This document shows positions 11,432 to 62,500 of a stretch of 64,000 nt of DNA, piece by piece. Every line of letters starts with the position of its first letter. The first letter of the stretch is position 1. Source of the DNA: Spirochaetales bacterium. Its GTDB lineage: Bacteria > Spirochaetota > Spirochaetia > Treponematales > Treponemataceae. The stretch spans positions 310,001 through 374,000 of the forward strand of contig QKEL01000014.1 in the NCBI GenBank assembly GCA_003252395.1. The letters run 5' to 3'. The notes under the pieces were generated by a model that had not been told where the DNA came from, did no database searches, and was given only the letters and a program-made list of their open reading frames with translations. A program made the position numbers and the translations under genes.

Positions 11432-11468
11432 TGCATACCCCCTTGTGGTATATCGGAAATTTTAATGG

Positions 11469-11474
11469 TATATT
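11469..11474 (+). promoter_or_regulatory. -10 hexamer TATATT, probable leaderless start
   Basis: TATATT ends 7 nt before the ATG at 11482. No Shine-Dalgarno is present. The same 50-bp region must also drive the divergent acyl-CoA synthetase. Confidence 0.5.
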
Positions 11475-11481
11475 CGATATT

Positions 11482-15329: not shown

Positions 15330-15395
15330 CGGGGGTAAGCCCGAAGCATGTGCTATAGTTTTTCGAGGATGTTCGATTTATACGTGGTACGCTTC

Positions 15396-43587: not shown

Positions 43588-45308
43588 CGTCCGTCCTCCA
43601 GGGGAACCGGGATGGTCACCTCCGTGCCCGATCCCGGCGTGCTCACGATTTTCAGGCTGTATTCGCGGCCGTAAAAGGCGCGCAGCCGGTCCTGTATGTT
43701 CCGCAGCCCAATTCCGCCCACGGGGCACGAGGACTCGTCGCTCCCCGCGAGCGCGTGGCCCAAACGGTCTACCTCGTCGGAGTCGAGGCCGGGCCCGTAG
43801 TCGCGGACGCGAAGCGTCAAGGCGCCGGCGACCGCGTCGGGATGGACAGAAACCTCGATCACCGCGTCCTCCCCCAGGGGCTCTATCGCGTGGAGCACGG
43901 CGTTTTCCACCACCGGCTGGATAATCATCTTGGGGATCCTGAACTCCCAATAGCCCGGGTCCACGTCCAACGCAAGTTCGATGCGGTAGTCGTTGCGTAT
44001 GTTCATCAGGTCTATATAGCCCCGCACGTATTCGAGCTCCTCCCGAACCATGACCTGGTGGTTGCGCCAGCGGAGGCAAAAGCGCATCATGCGCCCGAGC
44101 AGGGTCACGCTTTCCACGATGTCCGCCTGGTCGGCGAGCTCGGCCTGCATCTTGATGGTCTCCAGAACGTTGTACAGGAAGTGGGCGTTGATCTGGTTTT
44201 GCATCGCCTTAATCTCGGTTTGCGTGACCAGCTCCTGCTCGGTCTTTATCTCGCCGATCAGCTCCCGGATGCGCGCGGCCATCGCGGTGAAGGCGGCGGC
44301 CATCTCCGCCACCTCGTCGTCGCCGGATACGCTCACCGACACGTCCAGGTTGCCGGAACGCAGCTCGCTCATCGCGCCCATTACCTGGTAGAGGCGGGAA
44401 AAGAGGCGTCGGGTGGTGAATTTGATCAGGACGAACATGAGAGCCACCGAGAGAAGAAGGATGATGCAGGCGCCCAGCCGAATGAAGCTCACGCTCTCGT
44501 TGATCACCGAAGGCGAGGTGGCCCGCGCGACGGTGAGCCCCAGGCGCGCTATCCGCTCGTAGGCGACGATGAGGTTTTCGTTTCCCGCCCTCGTCACGAA
44601 ACTGCCGCCCGGCTCCCCGCCGTTCCCGATCCTCGCAAGGACGGTTTCCGCCTCGGCGTTCCCCGCGCCCAGTATTTCCCCGTCCCGGGCGAGGATATCG
44701 ACGCGGAGGGCGTCGCCTTCCCGGAAGGCGAAGGGGGCGAAATCTTCCATGCGCATTCCAAGCTGGAGATACCCCACGTGCCGTTTGTTCAGCAGTATTT
44801 CCTCGGTCAGGTAGAACGCGTCGCCGCTTTTCGCGGAAAGGTTTCCCATCAGGTCGTCGCGGTAATTATAGGACCAGCGGGGAAGCGAGGCGAGGTCGAG
44901 CCGGTCCTCGCGGAACACGATGGGCCAGCGTTCCGGCACGTTGGGATTCTCTATGAAAAGGCGGATGGAATATACCTGGGGCATGGCGAATTGGAGCCGC
45001 TCGATATTCTTAATGTCGTAGCGGAGGGTCTCGATCAGGCTGTCCTCGTCTTTCGGCTCGGCGAAGAAAAAGGTCCGCAAGAGGTCGTAGTCGCTGGTAA
45101 TGATGCTTTCGAGCCGCTCCATTTGGTCCACCGCGAGCACGATTGAGCGCGCGTCGTCGGCAGCCGCCTTTCTCGCGTCGTCCAGGACCGACTCGTACAT
45201 GGAAACGCGGAAGTATTCCGAGGCGAGAAACACGAAAATCATGATCGGCAGCGCGACGATCAGGGTATACACGATGGCGATCTGCGAGGAAAAGGAAAGC
45301 CGTTTCAT
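43584..45308 (-). CDS. YesM-type sensor histidine kinase
   Basis: A 574-residue kinase of the LytS/YesM class: membrane helix about 8-30, extracytoplasmic sensor about 31-280, second helix about 285-305, HAMP (about 307-360), His_kinase domain with phosphoacceptor in QINAHFLYNVLETI, and a GHKL ATPase (VVENAVLHAIEP, DYGPGLD, GGIGLRNIQDR). Such kinases sense extracytoplasmic sugars, often through a binding protein. A TATAAT box (45328-45333) and the shared 30-nt element upstream suggest that the pair activates its own transcription. Confidence 0.93.
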   Translation of the reverse strand: MKRLSFSSQIAIVYTLIVALPIMIFVFLASEYFRVSMYESVLDDARKAAADDARSIVLAVDQMERLESIITSDYDLLRTFFFAEPKDEDSLIETLRYDIKNIERLQFAMPQVYSIRLFIENPNVPERWPIVFREDRLDLASLPRWSYNYRDDLMGNLSAKSGDAFYLTEEILLNKRHVGYLQLGMRMEDFAPFAFREGDALRVDILARDGEILGAGNAEAETVLARIGNGGEPGGSFVTRAGNENLIVAYERIARLGLTVARATSPSVINESVSFIRLGACIILLLSVALMFVLIKFTTRRLFSRLYQVMGAMSELRSGNLDVSVSVSGDDEVAEMAAAFTAMAARIRELIGEIKTEQELVTQTEIKAMQNQINAHFLYNVLETIKMQAELADQADIVESVTLLGRMMRFCLRWRNHQVMVREELEYVRGYIDLMNIRNDYRIELALDVDPGYWEFRIPKMIIQPVVENAVLHAIEPLGEDAVIEVSVHPDAVAGALTLRVRDYGPGLDSDEVDRLGHALAGSDESSCPVGGIGLRNIQDRLRAFYGREYSLKIVSTPGSGTEVTIPVPLEDGR

Positions 45309-45469: not shown

Positions 45470-47170
45470 TTATTCGAAGCTAACCGCGGAAACGTAGAGG
45501 CTGCCGGTCACTTTCGACGGCGCCGTATCCGGAAGATAGGGGTTGTTGAGCTGGTCGGCGAAGGCGACCACGTATACCTTGGTCAGGTCGATTCCGGTAA
45601 AGGCGGAGAGGGGGACCGTTATGGTCTTCCAGCCGTCCGCGTCGGCCGCGGAAACGGTACCGGGGAAATCCCCGGCGGCGATCTGCAGGGCCTTCTCGGT
45701 ACCCCCGACGGAGTTCATCTTCACCACCGCTGTATTGACCGCCGCGTCGAGGTCGGAATCGTTGAAGGTAATCACGAGATTCTCGTACCCGCTTACGTCA
45801 ACGCTACCGCCGCCGTCCCGCTGCCAGAAGCAGCCGTACCACGACATGGTCGAATCGAGGGTGTAACGGATCGCGTTCGCCGCCCCGTATACGTCCTCCG
45901 CTAGGGTCGGGTCAGTGTTTCCGCCGCCCCACACGGCGCAATTGACCACGGGAAGCTCGTCGAGGGAAAGGTCGGTGAAATCAAGCCCCAGGGGAGGAAG
46001 GGTCGAGGTTACCTCCACGGCTATCCCGACGCTCTTGCCGCCGAAGGACGCGGTGATTACGGTGCTTCCGTCGGCGACCCCGGTTATCACGCCGTCGGCG
46101 ACGGTCGCGACGCCCTCGTCCCCGCTCGCCCAGGAAACCTCGGCGGCGTCCACGGCGAGCGCGCCGGGATCGGAGGTAATGGAGACGGGCTTGGAGGCGC
46201 CGACCATCAGGATTACCGAGGCCGGGGAGGCGGAGAGGGACTCGACGGGGGCCACGTAGTTCGCTTCGTAATAGACGTTGTCGAGCAGGTAATAGGAATC
46301 GTACAGGGTCGTTCCGTCGGCCTTTTTCGGATGCCAGAAACCGGCGAACACCGTGAGGTTCTCCAGGTCGACGCTGGCGTTCTTCGCCTTGAAAGAGGCC
46401 ATGGGGACGGTGTAGGTCTTCCAGCCGTCGGCCGTTTCCGGGGTAAAGTTTCTGAGGAACACGCTGGCGCCCTGGCCGTCCGACTCGATCTTGACTTCCA
46501 TGTCCGCCACGTCGCCCTTCAGGGAAAACACGAGCGCGCCGTTTTTATACGCGGCGGTATTGCCCGCGACGGGAGCGGCGGGCTTGAAGAACATACCGCC
46601 CCAGACCGTGGTCGCGCTGTAGTCGATTTTCGCGCACGTCGAGCCGTCGGCGGAATCGGAATTCTCGTTGGTAATGCCAAGGGGAAGGCTTCCGTCGTTC
46701 GCGTTCTCCGCGTGGTCCCAGGTCATGTCGGACGCGATAAGGGCGTAGGTTTCTGAGTAGATTCCCCCCGCTGAGGTATCGGCGCCTCCCGCGCCGATCG
46801 TGAGGGTATCGTCCGGGGCTTCCACGATCTCGCCGTTGAAGGTTTCGACCGCGGCGCCAAGGGCCGCGAGGGCGGCGTCTACCTGGGCTTGGGTCGCGGC
46901 GGTATTATCGTTCACGGTCTCGGCGGCGTCGATGGCGGCAAGGAAGGTTGCCTTCGCGGACGCCGAAGCTTGCCCCTCTTCGGTACCCTCGGCCGTCGCG
47001 GTATAAAGCAGGTTGGCGGCGGCGATCGCGGACGCGAGTTCGGCTTTGTCTACCGTTGTCGGGTTCGCGCTGGGGCTGGGCTTGTCGTTCGAGGACGTGG
47101 AACACGCCACGAACGCTACTGTCGCGAGCGCGGCGATTATCGCGGCGAACGTTACGTTCCTTCTTTTCAT
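45470..47170 (-). CDS. Multidomain carbohydrate-binding lipoprotein
   Basis: This 566-residue lipoprotein (lipobox FVACS, Cys22) has a FIVAR-like helical segment (about 40-115), a first beta-sandwich with DGWKTYTVPMASFK (about 130-300), a Big_2 immunoglobulin-like domain (about 305-395, VSWASGDEGVATVADGVITG in part) and a second beta-sandwich with DGWKTITVPLSAF (about 400-566). The two sandwiches look like related carbohydrate-binding modules. No catalytic site is seen, so it likely captures glucan at the cell surface. It is expressed from its own promoter with copy 2 of the 30-nt element. Confidence 0.8.
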   Translation of the reverse strand: MKRRNVTFAAIIAALATVAFVACSTSSNDKPSPSANPTTVDKAELASAIAAANLLYTATAEGTEEGQASASAKATFLAAIDAAETVNDNTAATQAQVDAALAALGAAVETFNGEIVEAPDDTLTIGAGGADTSAGGIYSETYALIASDMTWDHAENANDGSLPLGITNENSDSADGSTCAKIDYSATTVWGGMFFKPAAPVAGNTAAYKNGALVFSLKGDVADMEVKIESDGQGASVFLRNFTPETADGWKTYTVPMASFKAKNASVDLENLTVFAGFWHPKKADGTTLYDSYYLLDNVYYEANYVAPVESLSASPASVILMVGASKPVSITSDPGALAVDAAEVSWASGDEGVATVADGVITGVADGSTVITASFGGKSVGIAVEVTSTLPPLGLDFTDLSLDELPVVNCAVWGGGNTDPTLAEDVYGAANAIRYTLDSTMSWYGCFWQRDGGGSVDVSGYENLVITFNDSDLDAAVNTAVVKMNSVGGTEKALQIAAGDFPGTVSAADADGWKTITVPLSAFTGIDLTKVYVVAFADQLNNPYLPDTAPSKVTGSLYVSAVSFE

Positions 47171-47394: not shown

Positions 47395-49434
47395 TTACCA
47401 ACCGATTCCGATCACGAGGCCGCGGGGCGCGTGGCTCTCGATGAGCGTGCTGTGGTCGGCAACGTCGTCATAGCAGAACCCGTAAGCCTTACCGTCGATA
47501 TTGTGGTCGTGCCAGAACTTGGCGTAGTAATTGGCGGGACCGGCGGGATAATAGGCCGAGGCGGTCGCCCAGCTCGCGGGGCTTTGCGCGATATGGCGGT
47601 TGAGGGCGGCGCAGAGCTGGGCCTGGAGCGCGAGCTCTACCGTATTGCCCGTGGCGAGAACGCCCGAACCCTCGAAGAGCTCGTCGTTGTTCGGCTTGCC
47701 CGAAACGTAGAATTTCCCGCCGTCGCTCGTCCGGGTGAATTCGAACCGGTTATCCGAAAGCACGCGGCCGTTGAAGCGCCCCAGGGGATGGTCGAAGGAT
47801 AGGGTATTGGTCTTGTAGTAATTCCATACCTGATCCACGTAGGAGTTCATGTAAGTACCGTAGGCGCGGCCGACCCGGAAGTCGCCCTTGCAGGGGGCCA
47901 CGATGCGGTAGGGTCGCTGCACGAGGCCGCGGAATTCCGCCTGGGCAATATTCTCGAAGGCGCTGAAAATCGCCTCGCGGGTTTCGGTGATTCCCACTTT
48001 CTTGAAGGAGGCATACGACGAACCCGAGTCGTTGTACATTTCCATGGTAATTGGGAAACCGAACTGGTCCACCTGGGTGGTATTGCCCCAGAACGCGCCG
48101 GGGGCGACGGTGTACTCGATCCAGTCGTAAATCGTTGAGGCATTCGCGTCGGAGGGATTGTTCAGGTCCGGCTGAACCACCCCGATGTTGCCCGCGCCGT
48201 CCACGATTCCGCGCATGACCATCTTTTTGTCGAGGGAGATATAGAGGCGGGTCGCGGGCATGGACTTGGGCACCTGGAAGCCGGAGATATCGCTCAGGCG
48301 GTAGGACCAGGCGTCGCTGGTTTGCCCCGCGACGATGGGGACGAGGGTCCCGTCGGGCTTGAGATAGCAGAACTGGCCCGAGGCGTTTTGGCCGACGGCG
48401 CAAATCCAGATGCGGTCATTGGAGTAATTGCCCCGGGTATTGTTCGCGAATTGAAGGGTCATCTCCATGTTGGCGTTCAGGGGAATGAGGGTGTCGCTTC
48501 CGGTGCCGCCGGTATCGCCGCCCGTGCCCGAATCGAGGCGGGTAAAGGTCCAGCGCTGGGCGTTGGAGGAGTTCGAGGTCCAAAGCTGAATATTACCGCC
48601 GTTCTCGGTGGAGGAAGACGACACGTCGAGAACCTTGTTGGCGTGAACGTTGGTCAACTTAAAAGAGCCGTCGCCGTAAGGTTCGATTTTCCATTTTTGG
48701 TTTGCCTGATTGTTCCCCAAGGTCCACTGGACGATATTGGTGCCGTCGCCCGTTCCCCAGCCAGCGCCGTCAAGGGCAAGTCCGCTCCACAGGGAAACGA
48801 GATAGAAGGTTCCGTCCCCCGCGGCGACCAGTTTCCATTTCTGGTTCTCGCCGCCCACGTAATCCCATTGGTGGATATTCGCGCCGGGGTTCTTCGAGAC
48901 GTCTGCGACGTCCATGGCCTTACCCGAGCACTTTGCGACGATCTTGTAGACGGCCCCGGCGACGAGGCCGCTCGTATCTCCCGTAGAACCGCTTCCCGTT
49001 CCCGCGGAAGCGTCGCCGTAGGTAACGGCCGCCCAGCTGGCGGTGTCGGACAGGGTACCTTGGGGCACGCAGGCTTCCGCGCCGTTCTGGTTTTTAAGCA
49101 CGGCGATCCGGATTTTCGCCCCGGCGGTAAACGTCGGGCGGGAGAGGGTGTAACTGTATTTTCCGCCGGAATAGTTCATGTCCTTCGAGGCGAGCACGAG
49201 GCCGAGCCCGTTGCCCTCGCTCACGTACAGGCGGGCATAGCTTACCTGGGACCCAGCGTTCCAAGTCACGGTCATGGAGGTGCCGCTCATGCCGGTCACT
49301 TCGATCGTGCCGTTCGTTCCGGTCACCGCCCTCGCGCCGGCGGATTCAGGGGAAGCCTTCGCGTCGAAAGACGCCATGCTGCAAGAGGCGAGCAAGACTG
49401 ACGCTGCAAGCGCGAGCCCAAAGATCTTCTTCAT
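47395..49434 (-). CDS. GH64-type beta-1,3-glucanase lipoprotein with ricin-type lectin domain
   Basis: This 679-residue lipoprotein (lipobox LLASC, Cys18) has a Fn3/CBM-like domain (about 40-130), a ricin B-type beta-trefoil (about 155-305) with three QxW repeats (ENQKWKLV, ANQKWKIE, NAQRWTFT), a Gly/Thr linker and a C-terminal domain (about 320-679) that matches the GH64/thaumatin-like beta-1,3-glucanases. GH64 enzymes cut long-chain beta-1,3-glucans into short oligosaccharides. The start ATG at 49434 has an AAGGAG site. The domain call rests on overall pattern; catalytic residues were not individually placed. Confidence 0.78.
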   Translation of the reverse strand: MKKIFGLALAASVLLASCSMASFDAKASPESAGARAVTGTNGTIEVTGMSGTSMTVTWNAGSQVSYARLYVSEGNGLGLVLASKDMNYSGGKYSYTLSRPTFTAGAKIRIAVLKNQNGAEACVPQGTLSDTASWAAVTYGDASAGTGSGSTGDTSGLVAGAVYKIVAKCSGKAMDVADVSKNPGANIHQWDYVGGENQKWKLVAAGDGTFYLVSLWSGLALDGAGWGTGDGTNIVQWTLGNNQANQKWKIEPYGDGSFKLTNVHANKVLDVSSSSTENGGNIQLWTSNSSNAQRWTFTRLDSGTGGDTGGTGSDTLIPLNANMEMTLQFANNTRGNYSNDRIWICAVGQNASGQFCYLKPDGTLVPIVAGQTSDAWSYRLSDISGFQVPKSMPATRLYISLDKKMVMRGIVDGAGNIGVVQPDLNNPSDANASTIYDWIEYTVAPGAFWGNTTQVDQFGFPITMEMYNDSGSSYASFKKVGITETREAIFSAFENIAQAEFRGLVQRPYRIVAPCKGDFRVGRAYGTYMNSYVDQVWNYYKTNTLSFDHPLGRFNGRVLSDNRFEFTRTSDGGKFYVSGKPNNDELFEGSGVLATGNTVELALQAQLCAALNRHIAQSPASWATASAYYPAGPANYYAKFWHDHNIDGKAYGFCYDDVADHSTLIESHAPRGLVIGIGW

Positions 49435-49578: not shown

Positions 49579-50259
49579 TTAAAAGGTAACGTGCTCGAAT
49601 ACATTCACGTTCGCGTCGGATCCATCAAGGAAAGCGATATCCTTATATTCCGCCCAGCGCCCCTCGATGCAGGGAAGGACGAAGGTAAAGGCGACTTTGA
49701 TCTTCCTGTTGACGGCGGAAAGCGAGGTTGTGGGTATCGTTACGGTTTTCCATCCCTCCGAGTCGGCGGCGCTCACCGTAAAAGTCGAAAGGGCTGATTC
49801 GGGAATCGCGTCCGCGGTTAGGCTCACGAGCTTAAATTTAAGTTCGGCCGTGCTGCAGTTGTCGGATCGAACCTTAAAACGGACCTTCGCGACGTCGGTA
49901 AAGTCGATATAGGAACCGGCCGCGGCATTGTCCGGCAGCTGGGCCAGGGTCCCGGCGCTCCAACCCTTGCCCGTAACCGCGCTCGCCTTGATCCCTCCGG
50001 AGTCCGCGTTTTCCAGATTGGCCGTCGCTTCCCAATCCCCGATCGCGACATTGGGCTTTAGGCCGCCGAGTATCTGCTCCCATCGTCCATAGGTAATCGA
50101 ATTATCGACGAATAAATTGGGCGCAAAATCCTCAAAGAGCGCGCCGTCCCCGCCCGCCGGGTCACCGGTATTTACGGGGTTTCCGGGAGCCGCGCCTTGA
50201 GAGCAGGCAGACAGCAACGCGACGGCGGCGGCCGCTAAGAATGACAGTTTTATTTTCAT
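49579..50259 (-). CDS. Small carbohydrate-binding-like lipoprotein
   Basis: A 226-residue lipoprotein (lipobox LLSAC, Cys19). The mature part is one beta-sandwich that contains EGWKTVTIPTTSL, the same motif as in the two sandwiches of the 45470-47170 protein, so the three modules are probably homologous. No catalytic residues are seen. It likely binds glucan at the cell surface. A GGAGGAGA site precedes the ATG. It forms its own transcription unit with element copy 4. Confidence 0.75.
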   Translation of the reverse strand: MKIKLSFLAAAAVALLSACSQGAAPGNPVNTGDPAGGDGALFEDFAPNLFVDNSITYGRWEQILGGLKPNVAIGDWEATANLENADSGGIKASAVTGKGWSAGTLAQLPDNAAAGSYIDFTDVAKVRFKVRSDNCSTAELKFKLVSLTADAIPESALSTFTVSAADSEGWKTVTIPTTSLSAVNRKIKVAFTFVLPCIEGRWAEYKDIAFLDGSDANVNVFEHVTF

Positions 50260-50837: not shown

Positions 50838-51671
50838 TTACCGGTACACCCGCACGTAGTCAACTTCCATTATGGCCTGGGTGAGGGACGGGGAGATGGA
50901 TCCCCCAAGATTGCCCCCCATGGCCACGTTAAGGATGAAGTGGAAATCCTGGTCAAACGGCCATACCTTCCAGTCGCCGGTTTTCCGGTACGGAATGCCG
51001 ACCGGCACGCCGTCCACGAACCAGCTTATGGAGTCATCGGTCCATTCCACGCCGTAACGGTGAAATTCCGAGGTGGCGGTGGGTATCTCTTTCTTCCCGA
51101 TGGACGGATACGCGTGGGCGGCAATGCTCTCGCCGAAATGCACCGTACCGTACACCTGATTGACGCCCACGGTGCCCGGAGAATATTCCATGATATCGAT
51201 CTCTCCGCTTCGGGGCCACGAGTCATACACGCTGTCCGTGGGCATCATCCAGAATGCGGGCCAGACGCCGTTCCCCGCCGGAAGCTTTATTTTCGCTTCC
51301 ATGTACCCGTAGGTCCATTCCTGCTTGTTGATTCCCCGCAAGCGGGCGCTCGTCCAGGAGCCGTTCGCCTTAACCGCCTTCACCTTGAGCGTTCCGTTGT
51401 CTACCCAGGAGTTCGCGCGGGTATCGGTATAGGTTTGAACCTCGTTGTTCCCCCAGCCGCCCGCGCCGAGCTGATAGCCCCAATTCGACCCAGAGGGAGC
51501 GTTGAGCGTCCCCGCGGCGTCGAACTCGTCGGACCACACCAGGGTCTGGTAGCGCTCGGAAGCGGAAACCCCTTCGGGCGCGCCTTCTATGATTTCTTCC
51601 TCCGGCGGGATGAACATGCACCCCGCGAAAAGGAAGGCCGCCGCCGTGAGACCGGCGGCGCGTTTCGCCAT
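50838..51671 (-). CDS. GH16 beta-1,3-glucanase lipoprotein
   Basis: A 277-residue lipoprotein (lipobox FLFAGC, Cys18) with a complete GH16 domain. WSDEFD opens the domain, and the catalytic motif SGEIDIMEY gives nucleophile Glu157, Asp159 and acid/base Glu162. GTVHFGE and the C-terminal MEVDYVRVYR match laminarinases (endo-beta-1,3-glucanases). It should cut beta-1,3-glucan at the cell surface. The ATG at 51671 has GGAAGG upstream; ATG at 51686 is an alternative. It follows the glycosidase-barrel gene by 38 nt in the same operon. Confidence 0.92.
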   Translation of the reverse strand: MAKRAAGLTAAAFLFAGCMFIPPEEEIIEGAPEGVSASERYQTLVWSDEFDAAGTLNAPSGSNWGYQLGAGGWGNNEVQTYTDTRANSWVDNGTLKVKAVKANGSWTSARLRGINKQEWTYGYMEAKIKLPAGNGVWPAFWMMPTDSVYDSWPRSGEIDIMEYSPGTVGVNQVYGTVHFGESIAAHAYPSIGKKEIPTATSEFHRYGVEWTDDSISWFVDGVPVGIPYRKTGDWKVWPFDQDFHFILNVAMGGNLGGSISPSLTQAIMEVDYVRVYR

Positions 51672-51709: not shown

Positions 51710-54700
51710 TTAATACGTCACGTTCACGTACATTGAAAGCTCCGAGTATTCCCTGCCGTCCGGGTCCGGGGAACCCCCGTAAATATTCCAGGGATCGCTT
51801 GAATACTCTCCGAATTTCCAGCCCTGCCACTTCACGCCGACCCGGTTTGTCGCCTTGGCGAACAGGGGCGTGTCAAAGCCGTAAGAAACGTCCAGGTTCC
51901 ACTGGGCGGGCCAGGTTGTATTGAAGCCCCGGACCCAAGCGGGCTCCAGCCACTTATCCGCGACCCACGCGCCGTCAAGCATCCACGTGCGGTACCGGAG
52001 CTTCGCGCCCGCCTGCCAGTAGTCCACGATCCGCGTATCCATGCCGGCGCTGCCCTGATGCCCCGCCTCGGCGGTCAGAATGGCCCGGAAGCTCGGGAAG
52101 GGGTTGGTCACGATACGGGTGCCGACCTGCCAAAGGTCGCGCTGCTCCGGAAGCCCTGACGCGAAGGAAGTCCAGGTTCCGTCGGCCATTTTAAAGGCCA
52201 TGCGGTCCGTTTCGCCCGCGTAGAGGGTATACAATCCGGTCAGGCTCGCGGCGAATTTCGCGCCCTCGATATCGTCGCCGTTCCACTCATGGAACCAGGT
52301 GGCCCCTTCGGGGTCATAGGTGAGCACGCCCTCAAACTCGATCGCCTGACGGTTGGCGAACACTATGAAGGGAGAGCCAAAGCCCTCGTGGGAATCCGTT
52401 AGCGCGCGATCCGCGGGTTTTACCAGGGGCATACGGGAGCGCGCGACGGGCTTGAAGTTCAGGAAACCGTAATTGATGTCCGCGCCAAACTCCACTTCCT
52501 GCCGGTTTCCAGACCCGGAGTCGCCGGTGAAAAAACTACCGCGCACCACGGCGGGATTCGTGTCGGTCACGAGTCCGCGATGGATAAACTTTCCGTACAC
52601 GTAGGCCTTGCTCAGGATGTTCGTCCCGAGTTCCACCGAACCGCCAAGGGTATCGAGGTCCTGTACGGCCGCCCAGGTTCCGTCGGAAAGCCTGTACGGC
52701 GCCCCTACCTTCTCGTCGCCCGCGTACAGGATTCCCGTCTTGAGCGTCACGAAGGGATAGAGGGACGCTTCCCCGTACAGAGACGCCTTGCGCCCGGGAC
52801 CGTACGAATTGTGCGGATTTTCGGCCAGGTCGGATCGGGTACCGAACTCCTCCGCGAAGGTCAGTCCTAGATTAAACGAAGGCATGGGGACCGAGCGGGA
52901 GGGAAACGACTTCCACCAATTCGCGGCGATCTGGGGTTCCGCGGATCCGTAAATCTCGGGACCGCCGATTACCTGCAAGCCGGAAAGGAGACCTTTCCCG
53001 ATAAACTCCACGGCGATCGGCGCGAGGGATCCATAGGTGTCGTATCCGATGATATCGAAGGCCTCGTGGTTGATGTTGAATACGTCGCCCGAGGTCTCGA
53101 AGGCCGCGTGCTCCGCGTGGTAATAGCCGTTCAGGGAGAAGGAAGGATCGTCGAACCTGAAGGCGGCCGAATACAGGGACGCGTTGTACGCGATTTCGCC
53201 CGTCGTCTTGTCCTGATTGTAAATCGGGTAAATCTCGGCCATCTTGGTAGGCGCCGGATTCGACCACACGCGGAAATGGGCCTCGGCGCTCAGGTTTTCG
53301 GCGGGCGCCGCGGCGATGCCGATATCGGCCTCGCTGTAGGGCAAAAAGTTTATGCCCTCCTTCACGCTCCGCCCGGCGGCGTCAAGCCCGTCGAGACTGT
53401 CCTTATCAAGACCGGCGAGCGCCCCCGCCGTCACGCTGATCCCGGAAATCCTGATCGCGTCGCGCTCGTTGATCATCTCCTTGATGCCCGGCTCGGTGCC
53501 CCGCTGGAGGGCCAGGGCAAAGTCGAGATTGGCGAAGGCGGCGTCCACGTCGGCCTGGGTCGAGTCGTAGAGCGAAACCTGCCAGATATCCTTCATGAGG
53601 TAATAGGCGGCGCGCGGCATGCGCTTGGCGATCCCGTTTTCCTTCAGGGCGCTTTGGGCGACGATCCCGAACCATTCCTCGTTCATGTTGTTCACGCCGA
53701 TCCGGTAGTCCAGCTCGTAGCCCGCGTTGGACCAGGAACCGAGGACGTTATGCACGTCGAGTTCCTTGTTCTGGTACTGCTTCCACCATTCGTCAACCCA
53801 CTCGAACACGTACCCGCCGAGCATGTTGGCGGACTTTCCCTTGCCGTAGCCCTGGGAGTAGAGCTCTTCCCACTGGCTCTTGAGGTAGGTCGCCTGCATG
53901 TACTGGTCTTCCTGCCGGGTCAGGGCGTTGTACGCGTCGGCCCCGGCCTCGGTGAGCACCACCGGCCGGTCGAGCGTATCCGCGATTCCCTGGTAAAAGG
54001 AATCGTAGAACCGGTACCCGCGGTAGGCGTTCACGCCCAGGATATCCAGGGAGGGGCACAGCTCGGCGATCAGGTCGACGTACTGCGTGTCGCCGTTGAT
54101 AAGGCCGACGGGCCGCAGGGGGTCCACTTCCTTGAGGGCGGCCATGGCCTCCTCGAAGAGGCTGTAGAGGTAGCCCGCGCGCACGGCGTTTTGCTCGCCC
54201 GTGGGGAGGTTTTCGATTTCCGAACCCGACCACACGAGGCCGTAGTTGCTTTCGTTGCCCAGCATGTACATGAGCACGCCCTTGGTACCGCGGTAGGTTT
54301 CGGCGGTTTTCCTGGCCTGGGCGACGAGGGCCTGCCGGGTATAGAGGTCGGAGTAATCGGTGACGGCGTACCATTTGCCGTTTACGGTCATGCCGTAACG
54401 CCCCAAGAGGTCGTTGATCATGGTGTAGATGCCGTACTTCGTGTAGATGTACTCGACCCAGCGCGGGGGAATCGTCGAGAACGCGCGGATCGTGTTGACG
54501 CCCATGGCCTTGAGAAGGGGCATGTCCACGTCCAGCATCCGCATGACGTAGTCGTCCGACTGGGCCCATAGGTTGAAGGTATGGGTCTCGCCTATCGGCG
54601 TGCAGGACCACACGACGCCCTTTACCTCGAAGGGCTTATTGTCCACCAGGAGCCGCCAGCCGTCCGCGTCCTTTTTCGTCTGCACGTATTGCGCGCTCGC

Positions 54701-54763
54701 GGGGAAGGCCGCCGCGAGGGCGACGGCCGCGGCGAGCAGGGCCTTTATGATCGATCGCTTCAT
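51710..54763 (-). CDS. Clan-A glycoside hydrolase fused to an outer-membrane beta-barrel
   Basis: This 1017-residue protein has a signal peptide (cut near ASA, residue 24), a TIM-barrel glycosidase domain (about 30-410) and a long C-terminal half (about 470-1017) of alternating amphipathic strands that ends in MYVNVTY, the terminal aromatic expected of an outer-membrane barrel. Likely acid/base is Glu171 (MLGNESNYGL) and nucleophile Glu272 (VLTEAGAD), as in GH2-like enzymes. The fusion would hold the enzyme in the outer membrane. The exact GH family is uncertain; context suggests beta-1,3-glucan. The ATG overlaps the CBM9 gene stop by four bases. Confidence 0.78.
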   Translation of the reverse strand: MKRSIIKALLAAAVALAAAFPASAQYVQTKKDADGWRLLVDNKPFEVKGVVWSCTPIGETHTFNLWAQSDDYVMRMLDVDMPLLKAMGVNTIRAFSTIPPRWVEYIYTKYGIYTMINDLLGRYGMTVNGKWYAVTDYSDLYTRQALVAQARKTAETYRGTKGVLMYMLGNESNYGLVWSGSEIENLPTGEQNAVRAGYLYSLFEEAMAALKEVDPLRPVGLINGDTQYVDLIAELCPSLDILGVNAYRGYRFYDSFYQGIADTLDRPVVLTEAGADAYNALTRQEDQYMQATYLKSQWEELYSQGYGKGKSANMLGGYVFEWVDEWWKQYQNKELDVHNVLGSWSNAGYELDYRIGVNNMNEEWFGIVAQSALKENGIAKRMPRAAYYLMKDIWQVSLYDSTQADVDAAFANLDFALALQRGTEPGIKEMINERDAIRISGISVTAGALAGLDKDSLDGLDAAGRSVKEGINFLPYSEADIGIAAAPAENLSAEAHFRVWSNPAPTKMAEIYPIYNQDKTTGEIAYNASLYSAAFRFDDPSFSLNGYYHAEHAAFETSGDVFNINHEAFDIIGYDTYGSLAPIAVEFIGKGLLSGLQVIGGPEIYGSAEPQIAANWWKSFPSRSVPMPSFNLGLTFAEEFGTRSDLAENPHNSYGPGRKASLYGEASLYPFVTLKTGILYAGDEKVGAPYRLSDGTWAAVQDLDTLGGSVELGTNILSKAYVYGKFIHRGLVTDTNPAVVRGSFFTGDSGSGNRQEVEFGADINYGFLNFKPVARSRMPLVKPADRALTDSHEGFGSPFIVFANRQAIEFEGVLTYDPEGATWFHEWNGDDIEGAKFAASLTGLYTLYAGETDRMAFKMADGTWTSFASGLPEQRDLWQVGTRIVTNPFPSFRAILTAEAGHQGSAGMDTRIVDYWQAGAKLRYRTWMLDGAWVADKWLEPAWVRGFNTTWPAQWNLDVSYGFDTPLFAKATNRVGVKWQGWKFGEYSSDPWNIYGGSPDPDGREYSELSMYVNVTY

Positions 54764-55578
54764 CGTTTGCCTCCCTTGAGCGCGTCGGATAGCGGAACGA
54801 CCCTGCCGTCGCCCCAGGTGCTCGCGTCCATGTACGCCGCGTCTTTCTCGCTCATCCAGTGCACGAGCCGCGACCGTTCCTTGCCGCCGTCGGCGTCGTT
54901 GATCTGGAATTCTAGCCTGACCTTTTGCCCGTTTTTTAACGGCTTCGCGTTTAGGAGGCTTACGGGTATCGCCGCCTCGATACGGTAGCCCGCGTCGCCG
55001 TAAACGATCGCGGCCTTAATCGAATCGTTGGGGACGGTCGAATCGTTCACGCACGCCTCGTAGGCGCCCTTGGCGGCCTTGCTCTTGGGCACGATGCGCA
55101 CGCGCTTGTCGGTATTCCTGTAAAAGGTGTGGTAGAGCGTGTCCGTACCAAAAAAGAACTCGATCGAGTCGCCGCGCCAGCCCTGCGGGGCAGGAAGCGC
55201 GTTCACGCCGGGATCGTCGTCGGCAACGTCGGCGAAGAGGTAGACGTTCGCGCCGTCGGTGCGGGTCACGAAAAGGCCGTCGGTGTTTTTCGCGTCGAAT
55301 AGGCCGCCGTACACCATCACCCGGGCGTTCACCCCGGGAAGGCCTTCCCAGTCGGAAAAGTCGCCGTCTATAACGGGCGCCTCGTCCTTGGAAAAGTACA
55401 CGGGGGCAACCTGCCCCACCGGGGGCTTGTTCGATTGGGATACGGCGTTCGGGTCCACGGAAGGCCGCCATGGGGGATCGATGATCTTCTTTTCCATGGC
55501 GGTCAGGCACGAGGAAAGGGCGAACGCCGCGAGGGCCAACGCGCATAGCTTGAGCGTGCCCTGAATTTTCGTCGTCAT
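54760..55578 (-). CDS. CBM9-like domain lipoprotein
   Basis: A 272-residue lipoprotein (lipobox ALSSC, Cys24) with one CBM9/DOMON-like sugar-binding domain (about 65-265). Landmarks are APVIDGDFSDWEGLPG, FVTRTDGANVYLFADVADDD and the WRGDSIEFFFGTD strand. It likely binds glucan chains or reducing ends and may work with the glycosidase-barrel protein, with which its gene overlaps by four bases. No element copy is found upstream, so it is probably read through from the transporter operon despite the terminator at 55639-55669. Confidence 0.83.
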   Translation of the reverse strand: MTTKIQGTLKLCALALAAFALSSCLTAMEKKIIDPPWRPSVDPNAVSQSNKPPVGQVAPVYFSKDEAPVIDGDFSDWEGLPGVNARVMVYGGLFDAKNTDGLFVTRTDGANVYLFADVADDDPGVNALPAPQGWRGDSIEFFFGTDTLYHTFYRNTDKRVRIVPKSKAAKGAYEACVNDSTVPNDSIKAAIVYGDAGYRIEAAIPVSLLNAKPLKNGQKVRLEFQINDADGGKERSRLVHWMSEKDAAYMDASTWGDGRVVPLSDALKGGKR

Positions 55579-55695: not shown

Positions 55696-57327
55696 CTACT
55701 TGAGGCCGAGCTTTCCCTTATTGACCTTCATCATTTCGGTCTGCTTGGCGAGCACCTTGTCGGCGCCCTTGGCCTTGCGGAAGGCCTGCCAATCGGACCA
55801 GATCCGGTCGAAGTCTGACTCCGATTTCGCGCGGAGCAAGAGGGGCAGGTCCTTGCCCCAGCGGCGGGCAAGCTCTTCGGAGATCAGGGCCTCGTCCGTT
55901 CCGGGCGCCAGTTGGGTAAGCCCGTCGTAGGCGGCGAAAGAGGTTACGTAGGGGCGGGTCCACAGCTGGGGCTGCTCGAGGGCGGGGGAATACTTCGCGC
56001 CGAACTGTCCCTGCCAGGCGGTGTCCATGAGCATCCAGTAGGTGTACATGACGCCGTATTGCGTTTCCTGGGCGTTTTTGTCCGTAGAGTCCAGCTTCTC
56101 GACCGCGGGAAGGAGCTGGGGCTTTCCGTTCACCGTCTCGTAGGTCACGCCGGGCACGCCGAAACAGGTGTCCATCTGGCCTTCCTCGCTGATAAGGTAG
56201 GTGAGGAACTGGATGGCGCGGGCCTTGTCCTTGCAGTTTTTGGAAATCATGGTAACGGTCCAGCCGGCGATACCGCCGCCGCCGAGGGTCGGGTTCGCGC
56301 CCTTGGAATTGCGGGGGCCCTCGACCGCGACGTAAACCGTGTTCGGGTCTTTATTGTACAGGGCCATCTGGGCGGCCTGCATGTCCCAGTTTTGGTAGAA
56401 CATGGCGAAGTAGCGGCCCTGGGCGATCTTTTCCTCCATCTGGGAACGCTTGTCCACGAACACGTCGGTGGCGAGGAGCCCTTCCTGGTTGGCCTGGCGG
56501 AATACTTTCAGCCAGCGCACGTATTCGGGATCGCTACCCCGGTCGTAGAATTTGCCGTCCTTTTCGTTGGGAATGGCGAGGAAATTCTGGATGTACTTTT
56601 CGAGGGAAACGTTGCCGGTATCGGTAAACTCCTGGAACCCGACGGGGATTAGGGGCTGGCCGTTCACGGTGCCGAACTTGGCCTTGGCGGCCCGAAGGGC
56701 GCCGAGGAAGCCCTCGGGGGTAGTCATGTCGGGCTTGCCGAGGGCCTCGTACATATCCTTGCGGACGAGGAAAGTCTCGTTGGAGGTGAGCTTTCCCTTA
56801 TAGGTTACGTAGTCCTGCGGGGTGTATGAGGCGTTGGGATACCCGTAGACCTTCCCGTCGGGCTGCCGGTACCAGCCGAGCTTTTCGGGGTTCGCGACCT
56901 TGAAGAAGATCGGGTCGTAGTTCTGGGCAAGCTCGTCCAGGGGAAGCACGAGGCCCGCGTCTATCATCATCCCCACCTGGCTTTCCCACCAACCGAGGGT
57001 GATAAGGTCGGGAAGGGTATCGCCGGCGATCATTGAGTTGAGCTTTTCGGCCTCGTTGCCCGCGGGCACCACGAAGCGCACGTTCACGCCGGTCTTTTCG
57101 GTGACGTACTTGGACACCGCCGAGTCTCCCCATTGCCGCGCGAACCAGCTGAAGTTCACGTACCAGTCGAAGGTAATCGGCTTGTCCTTGTTGAGTTTCC
57201 AGCCCGGGGTCGAACCGGTTCCGCTCACGGTTGCCGCGGATTGCCCCTTGGCGTCCTGTTTTCCCGCCGCGAACGTCAGCGGGGCCACCAGGCCCAGCGC
57301 GAGCGCGACCGCGATCAGTTTCTTCAT
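55696..57327 (-). CDS. Extracellular solute-binding protein of the LplA type
   Basis: This 543-residue family 1 binding protein supplies the LplBC permease. The signal peptide ends LTFAAGKQ with no lipobox, so it should be periplasmic rather than lipid-anchored. Length and features such as MIAGDTLPDLITLGWWESQ and GIAGWTVTMISKNC match the LipO/LplA group that binds oligosaccharides. The start is the ATG at 57327 with an AGGAGGAG site. It follows lplC by 64 nt. No ATP-binding subunit is encoded here, as is usual for this group; a shared MsmK-like ATPase elsewhere is expected. Confidence 0.9.
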   Translation of the reverse strand: MKKLIAVALALGLVAPLTFAAGKQDAKGQSAATVSGTGSTPGWKLNKDKPITFDWYVNFSWFARQWGDSAVSKYVTEKTGVNVRFVVPAGNEAEKLNSMIAGDTLPDLITLGWWESQVGMMIDAGLVLPLDELAQNYDPIFFKVANPEKLGWYRQPDGKVYGYPNASYTPQDYVTYKGKLTSNETFLVRKDMYEALGKPDMTTPEGFLGALRAAKAKFGTVNGQPLIPVGFQEFTDTGNVSLEKYIQNFLAIPNEKDGKFYDRGSDPEYVRWLKVFRQANQEGLLATDVFVDKRSQMEEKIAQGRYFAMFYQNWDMQAAQMALYNKDPNTVYVAVEGPRNSKGANPTLGGGGIAGWTVTMISKNCKDKARAIQFLTYLISEEGQMDTCFGVPGVTYETVNGKPQLLPAVEKLDSTDKNAQETQYGVMYTYWMLMDTAWQGQFGAKYSPALEQPQLWTRPYVTSFAAYDGLTQLAPGTDEALISEELARRWGKDLPLLLRAKSESDFDRIWSDWQAFRKAKGADKVLAKQTEMMKVNKGKLGLK

Positions 57328-57391
57328 ATTGCTCCTCCTTACTATGCCGGCCTCCCCGCGGGGCGGCCCCAAACGGTATCTATGCTACGGA

Positions 57392-58309
57392 TCAGCCCTT
57401 TACCGAGCCGATCATGACTCCCTTCACGAAATACTTTTGCAGGAACGGATACACGCAGATTATGGGCGCGGTGGTCACCACCATGGTGGCGAGCTTCACG
57501 GACTGCGAATTCACCTGGGCGCCCGAAATGCCCACCGGCAGGCTCACGACGGTCTTGGACGCGGACGCGCTGGCGATGATCCGGTACAGGAAGGTCTGGA
57601 TCGGCTGCAGGTCCGGGTTGTTAACGAAAATGACGCCCGAGAAATAGTCGTTCCAGTGCCCGACCCCGTTAAAGAGGGCGATGGTCGCGAGGACAGGCCC
57701 GGAAAGGGGCAGCACGATGCGCGCGAATATCCTGAACTCGTTCGCGCCGTCTATCTTCGCCGACTCCTCGAGGGCCGGCGGCATCTCCCGGAAAAAGGAC
57801 ATGAAAATGATCAGGTTCCAAAAGTTGAACAGCGAGGGGACGATGTACACCCAGAAGGTATCGTAGAGCCCGACGTTCTTTAAAAGGATGAAGTAGGGAA
57901 TGAGGCCGCCGCCGAAGAACATGGTGACGGTGCCCATGAGAAGGTACCAGCGATGGCCCATGATATGGCGCTTCGAGAAGGCGAACGCCACCATTGAGGT
58001 AAAGAACACGCTCGTGACCGTGCCGAGCAGGGTCCGCCATATGGTAACGTTGAAGGCCTGCAGTATCGCCTTGTCCTGGAATACCGTGCGGTAGCTGGCG
58101 ACGCTGAATTTCCTCGGCCACCAGTACACGCCGCCCATGAGGGTGTCGCTGGATTCGTTGAACGAGAGCACCACGGTGTACCACACGGGGTACAGCGTCG
58201 CGAAGCACAGGACCGCCATGAACACGACCAGGGCCTTGTCGAATAGCCGCATGTCGTTGAGCTTTCCGCCCGTCTTGCCCTTTCGTCCCATAACCTGATT
58301 ATCCGCCAT
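57392..58309 (-). CDS. ABC sugar permease, LplC/YtcP type
   Basis: A 305-residue CUT1 permease with six membrane helices and the EAA loop EESAKIDGANEFRIFARIVL that docks the ATPase. It forms a heterodimer with the LplB-like protein for oligosaccharide import. The start is the ATG at 58309 (MADNQVMG); the frame stays open for 200 nt upstream into the preceding gene but without conservation. It is 20 nt after lplB. Confidence 0.92.
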   Translation of the reverse strand: MADNQVMGRKGKTGGKLNDMRLFDKALVVFMAVLCFATLYPVWYTVVLSFNESSDTLMGGVYWWPRKFSVASYRTVFQDKAILQAFNVTIWRTLLGTVTSVFFTSMVAFAFSKRHIMGHRWYLLMGTVTMFFGGGLIPYFILLKNVGLYDTFWVYIVPSLFNFWNLIIFMSFFREMPPALEESAKIDGANEFRIFARIVLPLSGPVLATIALFNGVGHWNDYFSGVIFVNNPDLQPIQTFLYRIIASASASKTVVSLPVGISGAQVNSQSVKLATMVVTTAPIICVYPFLQKYFVKGVMIGSVKG

Positions 58310-58329
58310 AGTCGATTCTCCCGTCGTCG

Positions 58330-59286
58330 TTAGAACAGCGATACGTCGTTGATCCGACGCGTCAGTTGGTTGGTGGTATACAGCAAGACGAACGCGAAGA
58401 TCGACTTGAAGAAACCGATGGCGGTGGCGTAGGAGAACCGCATGCTCCGCATGGCCACGTTGAATACGTATATGTCCAAGACATTGCTCCTCGGGGCGTT
58501 GAGGGGGTTCCAAAGAACGAAAATCTGGTCGAAATTCGAGTTGAGGAGCCCGCCCACCGCGAGTATCAAAAGGATGGTCACCGTGCCCTTAATGCAGGGC
58601 AGGGTAATGGAGACCATCTGGCGGAACCGGCCCGCCCCGTCCACCCGCGCCGCCTCGTAGAGCTCCTGGTCTATTCCCGCGATCGCGGCAAGGTAAATGA
58701 TCGCCGACCAGCCGAGTTCCTTCCATATATCAGAGACGATAACGATGCCCCAAAAATACTCGGGATAGGCGAGGAAGGTGATGCCTTCCTTGAGTACGCC
58801 CATACCCACCAAAAGGTCGTTGATGAAGCCCGTATCGGAGAGCCAGGTGGTCAGGATTCCCCCGAGGATTACCCAGGAAAGGAAATGGGGCAAATACGAG
58901 ATGGTCTGGACGTACCGCTTGAACTTCGCGTTCCGCACCTCGTTGAGCAGAAGGGCGAAGATGATCGGCAGGGGAAAGCCGATGGCGAGCTTAAGCACGC
59001 TCAGGCCCAGGGTATTCATGAGGATATTCGCGAATTCCGGATCGCGCAAAAAGGCGATAAAGTGCTGGAACCCGTAATTGTCCGCCCAGGGGGAAGCGAG
59101 GAATTTCAAGCTAAAAAGCTTCTCGGTGATTTTGTAGTTTTTCTTGAAACCGGTGATTATTCCGTACATCGGGGCATAGTTGAAGACCAGCATCCAGATA
59201 ACGCCGCACCATGCCATGACTTGGAGGTATCGTTCCTCTTTCAGGCGCTGCATAAACGTTTTGGAGCTCGGCGGTTTCTGTCTCAT
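58330..59286 (-). CDS. ABC sugar permease, LplB type
   Basis: A 318-residue CUT1 permease with six helices, the LplB signature near the N-terminus (FNYAPMYGIITGFKKNY) and the EAA loop YEAARVDGAGRFRQMVSITL. It is the first gene of the transporter operon. A GAGAGG site lies 6 nt before the ATG, a TATACT box at 59308-59313 and element copy 5 upstream. Its substrate is expected to be beta-1,3-gluco-oligosaccharides by context; this is inference. Confidence 0.92.
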   Translation of the reverse strand: MRQKPPSSKTFMQRLKEERYLQVMAWCGVIWMLVFNYAPMYGIITGFKKNYKITEKLFSLKFLASPWADNYGFQHFIAFLRDPEFANILMNTLGLSVLKLAIGFPLPIIFALLLNEVRNAKFKRYVQTISYLPHFLSWVILGGILTTWLSDTGFINDLLVGMGVLKEGITFLAYPEYFWGIVIVSDIWKELGWSAIIYLAAIAGIDQELYEAARVDGAGRFRQMVSITLPCIKGTVTILLILAVGGLLNSNFDQIFVLWNPLNAPRSNVLDIYVFNVAMRSMRFSYATAIGFFKSIFAFVLLYTTNQLTRRINDVSLF

Positions 59287-59428: not shown

Positions 59429-59536
59429 CAGCCTGAAAGGGTTTGAGCCGCCTCGGACCCAGGAAATATTCAAGAGAAAGGGCCAAATGCCCCATGTCGC
59501 GTTTTATTGGGCCCATGCCCCGCGAGGAGGAATACC

Positions 59537-62500
59537 ATGAATGGATTAACGATACAAGCCGTGAGCGAACGGCGCAGCAAGGCCCCGACCGGCGAATTTA
59601 CCGATTTCATGGGGGAACCTTTCTATAAAATCTCTAACCATGACGGCATGAGCGCCTTTTTCATGACCATAGCGAGCGCCTCCGACGTTTGGAACTACGT
59701 ATGGTCCAACGGCGGCCTCACCGCGGGAAGGATCAATGCCGATCACGCGCTGTTCCCCTATTACACCGCCGATAAGGTTTCCGACGGCCGTACGATCACC
59801 GGTCCCGCCGTCGCGATTCGGGGCAAGGGCGAAGGCGGCACCTGGCTGTGGGAACCCTTCGCCGAGCGGGGCCGCGACTCCTGGAAGCTGGAACGGAACG
59901 TTTACAAAAACAGCAACGGGTCCAAGCTCTACTTCGAGGAGCGGAACCTGGACCTGGGCCTCGCCTACCGGTACGGGTGGACTTCCAGCGACCGCTTCGG
60001 CCTGGTCCGCCCCGTTACGGTCGTCAACGAGGCCGGCCGCACGACGGAAATCGAGATACTGGACGGTTGCCGGAATATACTGCCCGCCTGCGTCAGTGCC
60101 GCCTTGCAGAACGATAACAGCGTCCTTCTCGACGCCTACAAGAAAACGGACATAGACCCCGCCTCTTCCCTGGCGATCTTCTCGGTGTCTTCCATCGTCA
60201 CGGACAAGGCGGAGCCCAGCGAGGGACTCCTCGCCAACGTGGGCTGGTTTTCCTGCGAGGGAGACGTGTACCTGGACCCCCTCGCCCTGGAAGCGTTCCG
60301 CCTCGGCGACCCGCTCCCCGACACGGCCGTATTGAAAGGGCTCAGGCCTTCCCTCTTCGTCCGGCGCGACCTTTCACTCGCCCCGGGCGCCGCGGAAACG
60401 TGGTACCAGGTTCTCGACACGGATTACGACGCCGCCCGCATGGTCTCCCTGGCGAACCGGCTCGCGGACCGGAAAGCCCTGACGAAGGAAATAATCGCCG
60501 ACGTGGAGGAGGGAAACCGCCTCCTCGACTCGTACATCGCCGCCGCCGACGGCATTCAGGACACCGCGGATATCGCGACCTGCGTGCACCACAAGGCCAA
60601 CGTGATGTTCAATATCATGCGCGGCGGCTTGCCGGCCGACGGCGACCGCATAAACCTGGACGACTTCGCCGCCTTTTGCGAAAACCGAAACCGCAAACAC
60701 GCGCCCCGGGCGATTCGGGCGGCGGAGAGCCTTCGCCGGGACGATTCCGTCAATCCGTCCTACCGGGAAGTGCTCGCAAAGGTACGCGCCACGGGCGACG
60801 CCCAGGCGGTGAGACTCTGCCTGGAATACCTGCCCTTCACCTTCTCGCGCCGCCACGGCGACCCGAGCCGTCCCTGGAACCGTTTCTCCATCGAGCTCAA
60901 GGACTCCCGGGGCAACCGGAAGCTCAATTACCAGGGAAATTGGCGCGACATATTCCAGAACTGGGAAGCCCTCGCCCTCTCCTGGCCGGTTTTCCTGGAA
61001 GGCATGATCGCGAAATTCCTCAACGCCTCCACCGCCGACGGCTTTAACCCGTACCGCGTGACCCGCGACGGGATCGATTGGGAGGTGGTGGAACCCGACA
61101 ATCCCTGGTCGAATATCGGCTACTGGGGCGACCATCAGGTCATCTACCTCGCGAAGCTTTTGGAATTGCGCAACCGCTTCGAGCGGAAGGAACTGCTCGA
61201 AGGGCTTTCCTCCGCGCGCTTCTCCAGCGGAAACGTGCCCTATCGGCTCAAGGGCCACGCCGAGATCGTCGCGAACCCCCGCTCCACCATCGAGTTCGAC
61301 TTTGACGCGCACCGCAGGATTGAACGGGAGGAAGCGGAATACGGCACCGACGCGAAACTCCTTCGCGGGGCCGACGGGGAAGTGACCCTCGTCTCCATGA
61401 CCGCGAAATTCCTCTCGATTATCTGCGCGAAAATGGCGAGCTACGTGCCGGGGGGCGGAATCTGGCTCAATACCCAGCGGCCCGAATGGAACGACGCGAA
61501 CAACGCCCTGGCGGGGTACGGCCTTTCCATGGTCACCCTTTCCTACCTTCGGCGCTTCCTCGTATTCCTTACCGACCTCTACCGATCCGCGCCCGCGGAC
61601 GCCTTCGACGTACCCTCCGAAACCGCCGCGTTCTTCCGCGGCCTCGCCGAAACGTACGCGGGAGCCGACCCCGCGTCGCTTAACGAGCCCCGCTCCCGCC
61701 GCGCCTTCGTGGATTCCTGCGGGACCCTTTTCGAGACGGCCCGCGCCTCCCTTTACCGGAACGGGTACGCCGCCGAAACCGTCAACCTTTCGCGAGACGA
61801 GATCGTCGCGGGCTTTACCGCCTTCCTCGCCCACGCGGAAGCCACGATCGCCGCGAACCGCCGGAGCGACGGGCTGTACCACGCCTATAACACCCTGGCC
61901 ATCGCGGGCGACGGGGGCATGAGCGTCGGAACCCTCAACGAAATGCTGGAAGGACAGGTCGCCGTACTCTCTTCCGGCCAGCTCGATTCCGCGGAAGCCC
62001 TATCCCTGCTGAGGGCGATGAAAAAAAGCGCCCTGTGGCGGGAAGACCAGTACTCCTATATCCTGTACCCGAACCGGGAACTCCCCCACTTTCTCGCCAA
62101 GAACGCCGTCTCGGAGGCGGAAGCGCGGCGCATTCCCCTGCTCGCGGCCATGCTCGACGCGAAAGACGCCTCGATCGTCGTCAAGGACGAGAACGGACGC
62201 TGCCACTTTCATAGCGGGTTCAGGAACGCCGCGCACATGGACCCGGTCTTCGCCCGCCTCGCTGCCCGTGGCGGCGCGGAAGCGGCGCTCGCGGCCGGGT
62301 CACGCGACGCGGTGTACGCGCTCTACGAAAAAACCTTCGACCACCGGAGCTTCACCGGCCGATCCGGCACCTTTTACGCCTATGAAGGGCTCGGGAGCAT
62401 CTACTGGCACATGGTGGCGAAGCTCATGCTGGCGGTACAGGAATACGCCCTCGCCGAAAGCGATCCCGCCGTCCGAAAGGAGCTCGCAGAGGCTTACTAC

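Follow-up and report, generated by a model that had tools for sequence, protein, structure and literature searches.

A glycosidase domain fused to a predicted outer-membrane beta-barrel in beta-1,3-glucan loci of Spirochaetota and other bacteria

In the 64,000-nucleotide stretch of Spirochaetales DNA analyzed here (the window), we identified a gene that combines, in a single polypeptide, a clan GH-A glycosidase domain and a predicted 24-stranded outer-membrane beta-barrel, and that resides in a locus for the utilization of beta-1,3-glucan. Homologues that share both parts occur in several phyla, and in some genomes the two parts are encoded by separate, neighboring genes. We propose that the fusion protein serves beta-1,3-glucan uptake as an enzyme-porin of the outer membrane that cuts gluco-oligosaccharides on entry, an interpretation to which we assign a probability of roughly 0.6.

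Results

Architecture of the fusion protein

An earlier note, made from the sequence alone and giving no strand, had described an open reading frame encoding a glycosidase catalytic domain joined to a membrane barrel; the frame is present at exactly those positions, on the minus strand (Table 1), and AlphaFold2 (AF2) models and structural matches support both domains. As read from the sequence, the gene starts with ATG preceded by a GGGAGG Shine-Dalgarno sequence, and its start codon overlaps the stop codon of the upstream gene for a CBM9-like protein in an ATGA, so that the pair is probably co-translated. The GNESN and LTEAGAD motifs that had been singled out as active-site motifs are indeed there, and the terminal aromatic residue is Tyr1017. 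The assignment of residues 470-1017 to a barrel stood with respect to the fold predicted by AF2 but not with respect to its start, which lies at about residue 437. A Pfam scan of the entire fusion protein gave no matches, and the NCBIfam scan yielded a weak beta-galactosidase match and nothing else.

Table 1. Features of the fusion protein and of its locus in the window
Feature	Position	Strand	Basis or remark
Glycosidase-barrel fusion protein	51710..54763	-	1017 aa; full-length homologues
Predicted Sec-type signal peptide, residues 1-24	54692..54763	-	sequence ...AAAFPASA-Q; AF2 helix 2-18
Clan GH-A TIM-barrel glycosidase domain, residues 25-411	53531..54691	-	AF2, VIA-align
GNESN, residues 169-173	54245..54259	-	invariant in 79 homologues; aligns with GNES of GH158(Pro)
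LTEAGAD, residues 270-276	53936..53956	-	E272 invariant; aligns with TEFG of GH158(Pro)
Short low-confidence hinge between enzyme and barrel, residues 412-436	53456..53530	-	pLDDT 64-68 at 421-440
Predicted 24-stranded outer-membrane beta-barrel, residues 437-1016	51716..53455	-	AF2, fold matches, strand statistics
CBM9-like lipoprotein, coupled upstream partner	54760..55578	-	PF06452 2.2e-21; lipobox LSSC
GH16 (laminarinase-type) lipoprotein, directly downstream	50838..51671	-	PF00722 1.6e-19; lipobox FAGC
Lipoprotein, no assigned function	49579..50259	-	weak similarity to C-terminal parts of the CBM11-type lipoproteins adjoining the fusion in L007 and L082
GH64 beta-1,3-glucanase with ricin-B lectin domain	47395..49431	-	PF16483 2.3e-77
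Surface-type lipoprotein, Big_2 and weak carbohydrate-binding domain matches	45470..47170	-	Pfam
Histidine kinase (HAMP, His_kinase), likely sensor	43584..45308	-	
Response regulator/AraC, adjoins histidine kinase	42163-43590		
ABC sugar solute-binding protein	55696..57330	-	PF01547 1.5e-18
ABC permease (ORF limits, start not set)	57392..58513	-	clusters with permeases of L003, L005, L007
ABC permease	58330..59286	-	PF00528 4.5e-16
GH149 1,3-beta-D-glucan phosphorylase, divergent	59507..62953	+	NF058639 1320.8 bits (cut-off 1150)

The enzyme half

The full-length AF2 model, built with 79 homologues (pLDDT 82.7, pTM 0.69), contains a TIM barrel at residues 25-411. The closest solved folds are those of GH157 and GH158 endo-beta-1,3-glucanases, followed by GH2 enzymes: VIA-align aligned 316 residues with the GH157 structure 9g4n at 3.0 A (Z 28.4) and 277 residues with the GH158 structure 9p25 at 2.6 A (Z 27.6), with Z 27.6 also for 9oro. 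Identity to the characterized members of these families in the structural alignments is about 19-25%, and the sequence match to GH158 is remote and covers a partial span (phmmer E 8.6e-6; profile 2.9e-8).

The glutamates of GNES and TEFG in GH158(Pro) align with E171 and E272, which are the predicted acid/base and nucleophile, respectively, with N170 as the conserved asparagine ahead of the acid/base. BuGH158 relies on N136, E137 and E220 for catalysis and is inactive when they are mutated to alanine (PMC7157763). All 79 homologues retain N170, E171 and E272, and W102, N117, R122, Y174, W178, N245, Y247, D324, W326, W327 and K328 are invariant as well. The assignment of the enzyme half as a retaining beta-glycosidase is therefore well supported, and the fold neighbors together with the locus point to beta-1,3-glucan as its likely substrate.

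Like the GH158 and GH157 enzymes (BuGH158, 6PAL; GH158(Pro), 9ORO; LaGH157, 9G4N), the fusion enzyme is a clan GH-A TIM barrel with a GNE...TE pair, and it too is found in beta-1,3-glucan loci. However, BuGH158 has an Ig-like domain packed C-terminal to the TIM barrel, whereas in the fusion the membrane barrel comes straight after the hinge. We did not file the fusion enzyme simply as GH158 because true GH158 proteins adjoin the fusion in the same operons; the separate GH158 protein of the proteobacterial fusion operons matches that family at 2.6e-102.

The barrel half

Residues 411-1017 modeled alone by AF2 (pLDDT 86.0, pTM 0.83) form a barrel in which 24 strands were counted. The connections between the strands strictly alternate between long ones (mean 20.7 residues), which differ in length among family members, and short ones (mean 5.5, median 2), and the hydrophobic/polar alternation of the strand faces is 2.45 vs 1.23 +/- 0.19 in shuffles. 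The predicted model therefore has the attributes of an outer-membrane barrel, namely, an even number of antiparallel, amphipathic strands, with long loops and short turns at opposite ends. Among the Foldseek/VIA-align matches listed, all were outer-membrane barrels except for one mitochondrial VDAC barrel and one SusD assembly. The best match by Z was AlgE (16.6), with Occ porins at 15-16; further matches listed were Campylobacter MOMP, PapC, FimD, Wzi, chitoporin, maltoporin and TonB-dependent receptors. The ushers PapC and FimD, which have 24 strands, align over model residues 20-607, that is, the entire barrel. Most proteobacterial members carry the usual signal for assembly, an alternating strand with Phe as the final residue. 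Thus, structure prediction, which had been suggested as a check, produced a membrane barrel for the C-terminal half; the alternative of a soluble beta-sandwich was not seen and was rejected on the basis of the model, the fold matches and the strand statistics.

The fold of the C-terminal half is shared with Occ porins, AlgE, LamB/chitoporin, ushers and TonB-dependent receptors; searches of Pfam and the PDB gave no family and no sequence relative for it, respectively. FimD and PapC share the strand number as well, but have periplasmic domains of their own where the fusion has an N-terminal glycosidase. A TonB-dependent receptor or SusC was rejected because the plug domain characteristic of these receptors, PF07715, is absent in the Pfam scan, and a type Va autotransporter barrel (PF03797) was rejected given the 24 rather than 12 strands and the lack of a Pfam match.

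The predicted orientation of the enzyme

As a rule, barrels of the outer membrane have their short turns, and likewise their two ends, on the periplasmic side. In the model of the fusion, the short turns are on the side of the N- and C-termini of the barrel and the number of strands is even, so an enzyme domain placed before strand 1 is expected in the periplasm, except if it passes through the pore. The layout of relatives that lack the enzyme domain (L099, L110, L103, L104, L107, L111, L112), in which the barrel begins soon after the signal peptide, is consistent with a periplasmic enzyme. The alignment of the 24-stranded usher FimD with the barrel over model residues 20-607 points the same way. 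Only about 16 low-confidence residues connect the packed enzyme to strand 1. The predicted strand count, the general rule and the short hinge all speak against display on the surface, so that the 'self-anchored surface enzyme' put forward in the earlier note now seems less likely. Two free enzymes encoded in split loci (L117, L118; see below) end in an FlgD-like Ig domain, which could indicate that these enzymes are secreted to the surface instead of the periplasm.

The locus in the window and its counterparts in other genomes

The co-localization of beta-1,3-glucan hydrolases with a GH149 phosphorylase identifies the surroundings of the fusion gene (Table 1) as a beta-1,3-glucan utilization locus. 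Laminarin, on which an activity assay had been proposed, fits this setting as a substrate, with GH16, GH64 and GH149 alongside the fusion. The phosphorylase, which is without a lipobox, is presumed to be cytoplasmic. The CBM9-like lipoprotein adjoins the fusion in loci L001-L003, L082 and L122 too. The protein combining GH64 with a ricin-B lectin domain is an occurrence of this type in a spirochaete, near the fusion. Elsewhere in the window, positions 11431-12600 (plus strand) encode an NlpC/P60 hydrolase domain (Pfam 9e-26); the stretch of about 150 residues after it resembles amphipathic strands and ends in SYDL, so that this may be another, smaller enzyme fused to an outer-membrane barrel, and positions 15348-16511 (plus strand) encode a lipoprotein with DUF4932 (3.7e-34).

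Genes for beta-1,3-glucan utilization recur at other fusion loci. Among 82 gene-called loci, many of them incomplete, GH16 was found in 55, GH149 and GH17 in 39 each, and GH30 in 27; in Bacteroidota, the recurrent order is fusion, CBM11-type lipoprotein, GH16, GH149, GH17, GH30, and proteobacterial loci additionally contain a separate true GH158, LacI and GH149. Of 75 fusion loci, 47 have as the next gene one for a CBM11-type lipoprotein that binds glycans, and 18, mostly from Proteobacteria and Myxococcota, have one for a lipoprotein of the family that we denote u245. The u245 proteins (190-270 residues; for example, L026:13094-13828, plus strand, and 18 similar genes) are without a Pfam match. 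Many of the CBM11 and GH16 lipoproteins have acidic residues soon past the lipobox cysteine, a pattern that resembles the surface-export signals of Bacteroidota. Within Spirochaetota, GH149 is present in 16 of the 18 genomes with the fusion vs 27 of the 374 without it (Fisher p 3e-15, kinship ignored).

Neither SusC nor SusD was detected in the ABC-type locus of the window or among the large flanking ORFs scanned at the other loci, and import by SusCD was accordingly rejected for the genes scanned at the fusion loci. The genome from which the window comes encodes, elsewhere, TonB and two plug-bearing receptors, so that other entry routes exist. The fusion loci resemble SusCD-type polysaccharide utilization loci (PULs) and susCD-less GH149 clusters in that an outer-membrane protein is combined with a glycan-binding lipoprotein, a surface GH16, GH17, GH30 and GH149; however, the outer-membrane protein here is the enzyme-barrel fusion, and neither SusC nor SusD was found in the flanking genes scanned. 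CAZyme clusters that lack susCD but include GH149 have been noted before (PMC5827456). Furthermore, marine laminarin PULs with the order GH149-GH0-GH17-GH16_3-GH30_1 contain an unclassified 'GH0' for which no domain description is given (PMC10108472). The Bacteroidota fusion loci match these PULs in composition, and 'GH0' may plausibly be the same gene.

Distribution of fused and split forms

A scan of genome contigs for relatives returned at least 589 loci. The best 80 of these belong to Spirochaetota, Bacteroidota, Myxococcota, Gammaproteobacteria and single genomes of other groups, and most of the 80 align to the query from residues 1-30 through residues 960-1016. Hence the rarity of the fusion that the earlier note implied turned out to be wrong, and its proposed search for the same fusion in other spirochaetes was successful: 18 of 392 Spirochaetota genomes carry it, so within this phylum the distribution is patchy. 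The relatives in Treponema bryantii, a member of the same family as the genome from which the window comes, match the query at 56-57%. Given that full-length homologues are found in several phyla, the arrangement is far beyond chance. Cultured carriers include Treponema bryantii and several species of Flavobacterium and Myxococcus.

In the loci L117-L121 of other Spirochaetota, no more than a few genes separate a barrel without this enzyme domain from a free TIM-barrel relative. The free enzymes match the profile of the fusion enzyme with small-set E-values of 2.9e-55, 8.6e-33, 4.9e-31, 1.8e-12 and 4.5e-10, and three of them match the Pfam GH2 TIM barrel. Such split pairing was observed in 5 of the 6 testable loci, the sixth, L116, having the barrel without a free TIM enzyme; L099 was too short. 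In L121 (2631-5048, plus strand; genome G060), the barrel is fused N-terminally to a u245 domain (hmmsearch 1.6e-26). The fact that the enzyme and the barrel are fused in some loci and split in others, with u245 as a common partner, suggests that the parts work together, such a pattern being a classical sign of joint function. In L117 (889-1887) and L118 (2722-3720, plus strand), the genes for the free enzyme and for the barrel flank one that encodes a 333-aa protein with a signal peptide and the motif 'RxSGMGxAFxALxDDSSAxYYNPA', which resembles PorV/FadL-type outer-membrane proteins and had no Pfam match when the L118 copy was scanned.

Discussion

The findings described above can be translated into a model of stepwise uptake. 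Under this model, the CBM9-like binding protein, GH16 and the GH64-lectin protein at the cell surface would bind and pre-cut laminarin-like beta-1,3-glucan, and the 24-stranded barrel, as a putatively open pore, would provide passage for the resulting oligosaccharides. The GH-A domain, held on its short hinge at the periplasmic mouth, would cleave the emerging oligosaccharides with retention, using E171 as the acid/base and E272 as the nucleophile in a two-glutamate mechanism, and this cleavage would turn entry into a one-way step. The products would then be carried inward by the adjacent ABC system and phosphorolyzed by GH149 in the cytoplasm.

Several other interpretations have to be considered. 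If the enzyme domain were passed through the barrel and displayed outside, with the barrel serving only as anchor and exporter, the domain order would be that of type Va autotransporters with enzyme passengers, in which a signal and an N-terminal enzyme are likewise followed by a C-terminal barrel, and the FlgD-like C-terminal domain of the two free enzyme relatives, which is of a kind present on some secreted proteins, would be readily accommodated. However, type Va barrels have 12 strands as opposed to 24 in the fusion, no barrel family was matched in Pfam, and the hinge leaves little to span the pore; moreover, there are barrel relatives without the enzyme domain, which a dedicated exporter would not need. 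We consider surface display of this kind unlikely. Still less can be said for a degenerate or binding-only enzyme domain, which would make the protein a porin equipped with a module that binds oligosaccharides in the periplasm: the low identity to characterized GH157 and GH158 would allow it, but the invariance, in 79 homologues, of both catalytic glutamates, the preceding asparagine and many residues of active-site type makes it improbable.

It is also conceivable that the barrel secretes a self-made beta-glucan that the enzyme trims, by analogy with AlgE, BcsC and PgaA. Although AlgE heads the structural matches, Occ uptake porins lag behind it by no more than 1-1.5 Z, so that the AlgE match is not diagnostic, and we dropped it as evidence of export. 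Furthermore, the annotated neighbors are catabolic (GH16, GH17, GH30, GH64, GH149, GH158, ABC uptake, LacI), and no synthase-type glycosyltransferases were found among the neighbors scanned. Such a role in export and remodeling therefore appears very improbable, and cleavage on entry by an enzyme-porin remains the interpretation that we favor.

The earlier note knew of no described family with this arrangement, and this held: there is no family model for the barrel, and no description of a glycosidase-barrel fusion was found in the open-access literature, nor anything relevant on Treponema bryantii and laminarin. Taken singly, the GH-A enzyme and the membrane barrel are of known kinds, but no account of their fusion was found, and there is a real chance that it represents a new class of importers. 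In its full form, that is, a single polypeptide that, together with a glycan-binding lipoprotein and independently of SusCD, achieves hydrolysis-driven one-way entry in several phyla, this previously undescribed class is a tentative proposition, for which we would put the odds somewhat below even.

The beta-1,3-glucan laminarin is a major marine carbon store. How it crosses the outer membrane without SusCD is a missing step in many lineages, for which the fusion is a conserved candidate and, as a single gene with cultured carriers, one that is directly testable. In addition, the families of the large barrel and of the glycosidase, neither of which has a Pfam model, gain a likely joint function.
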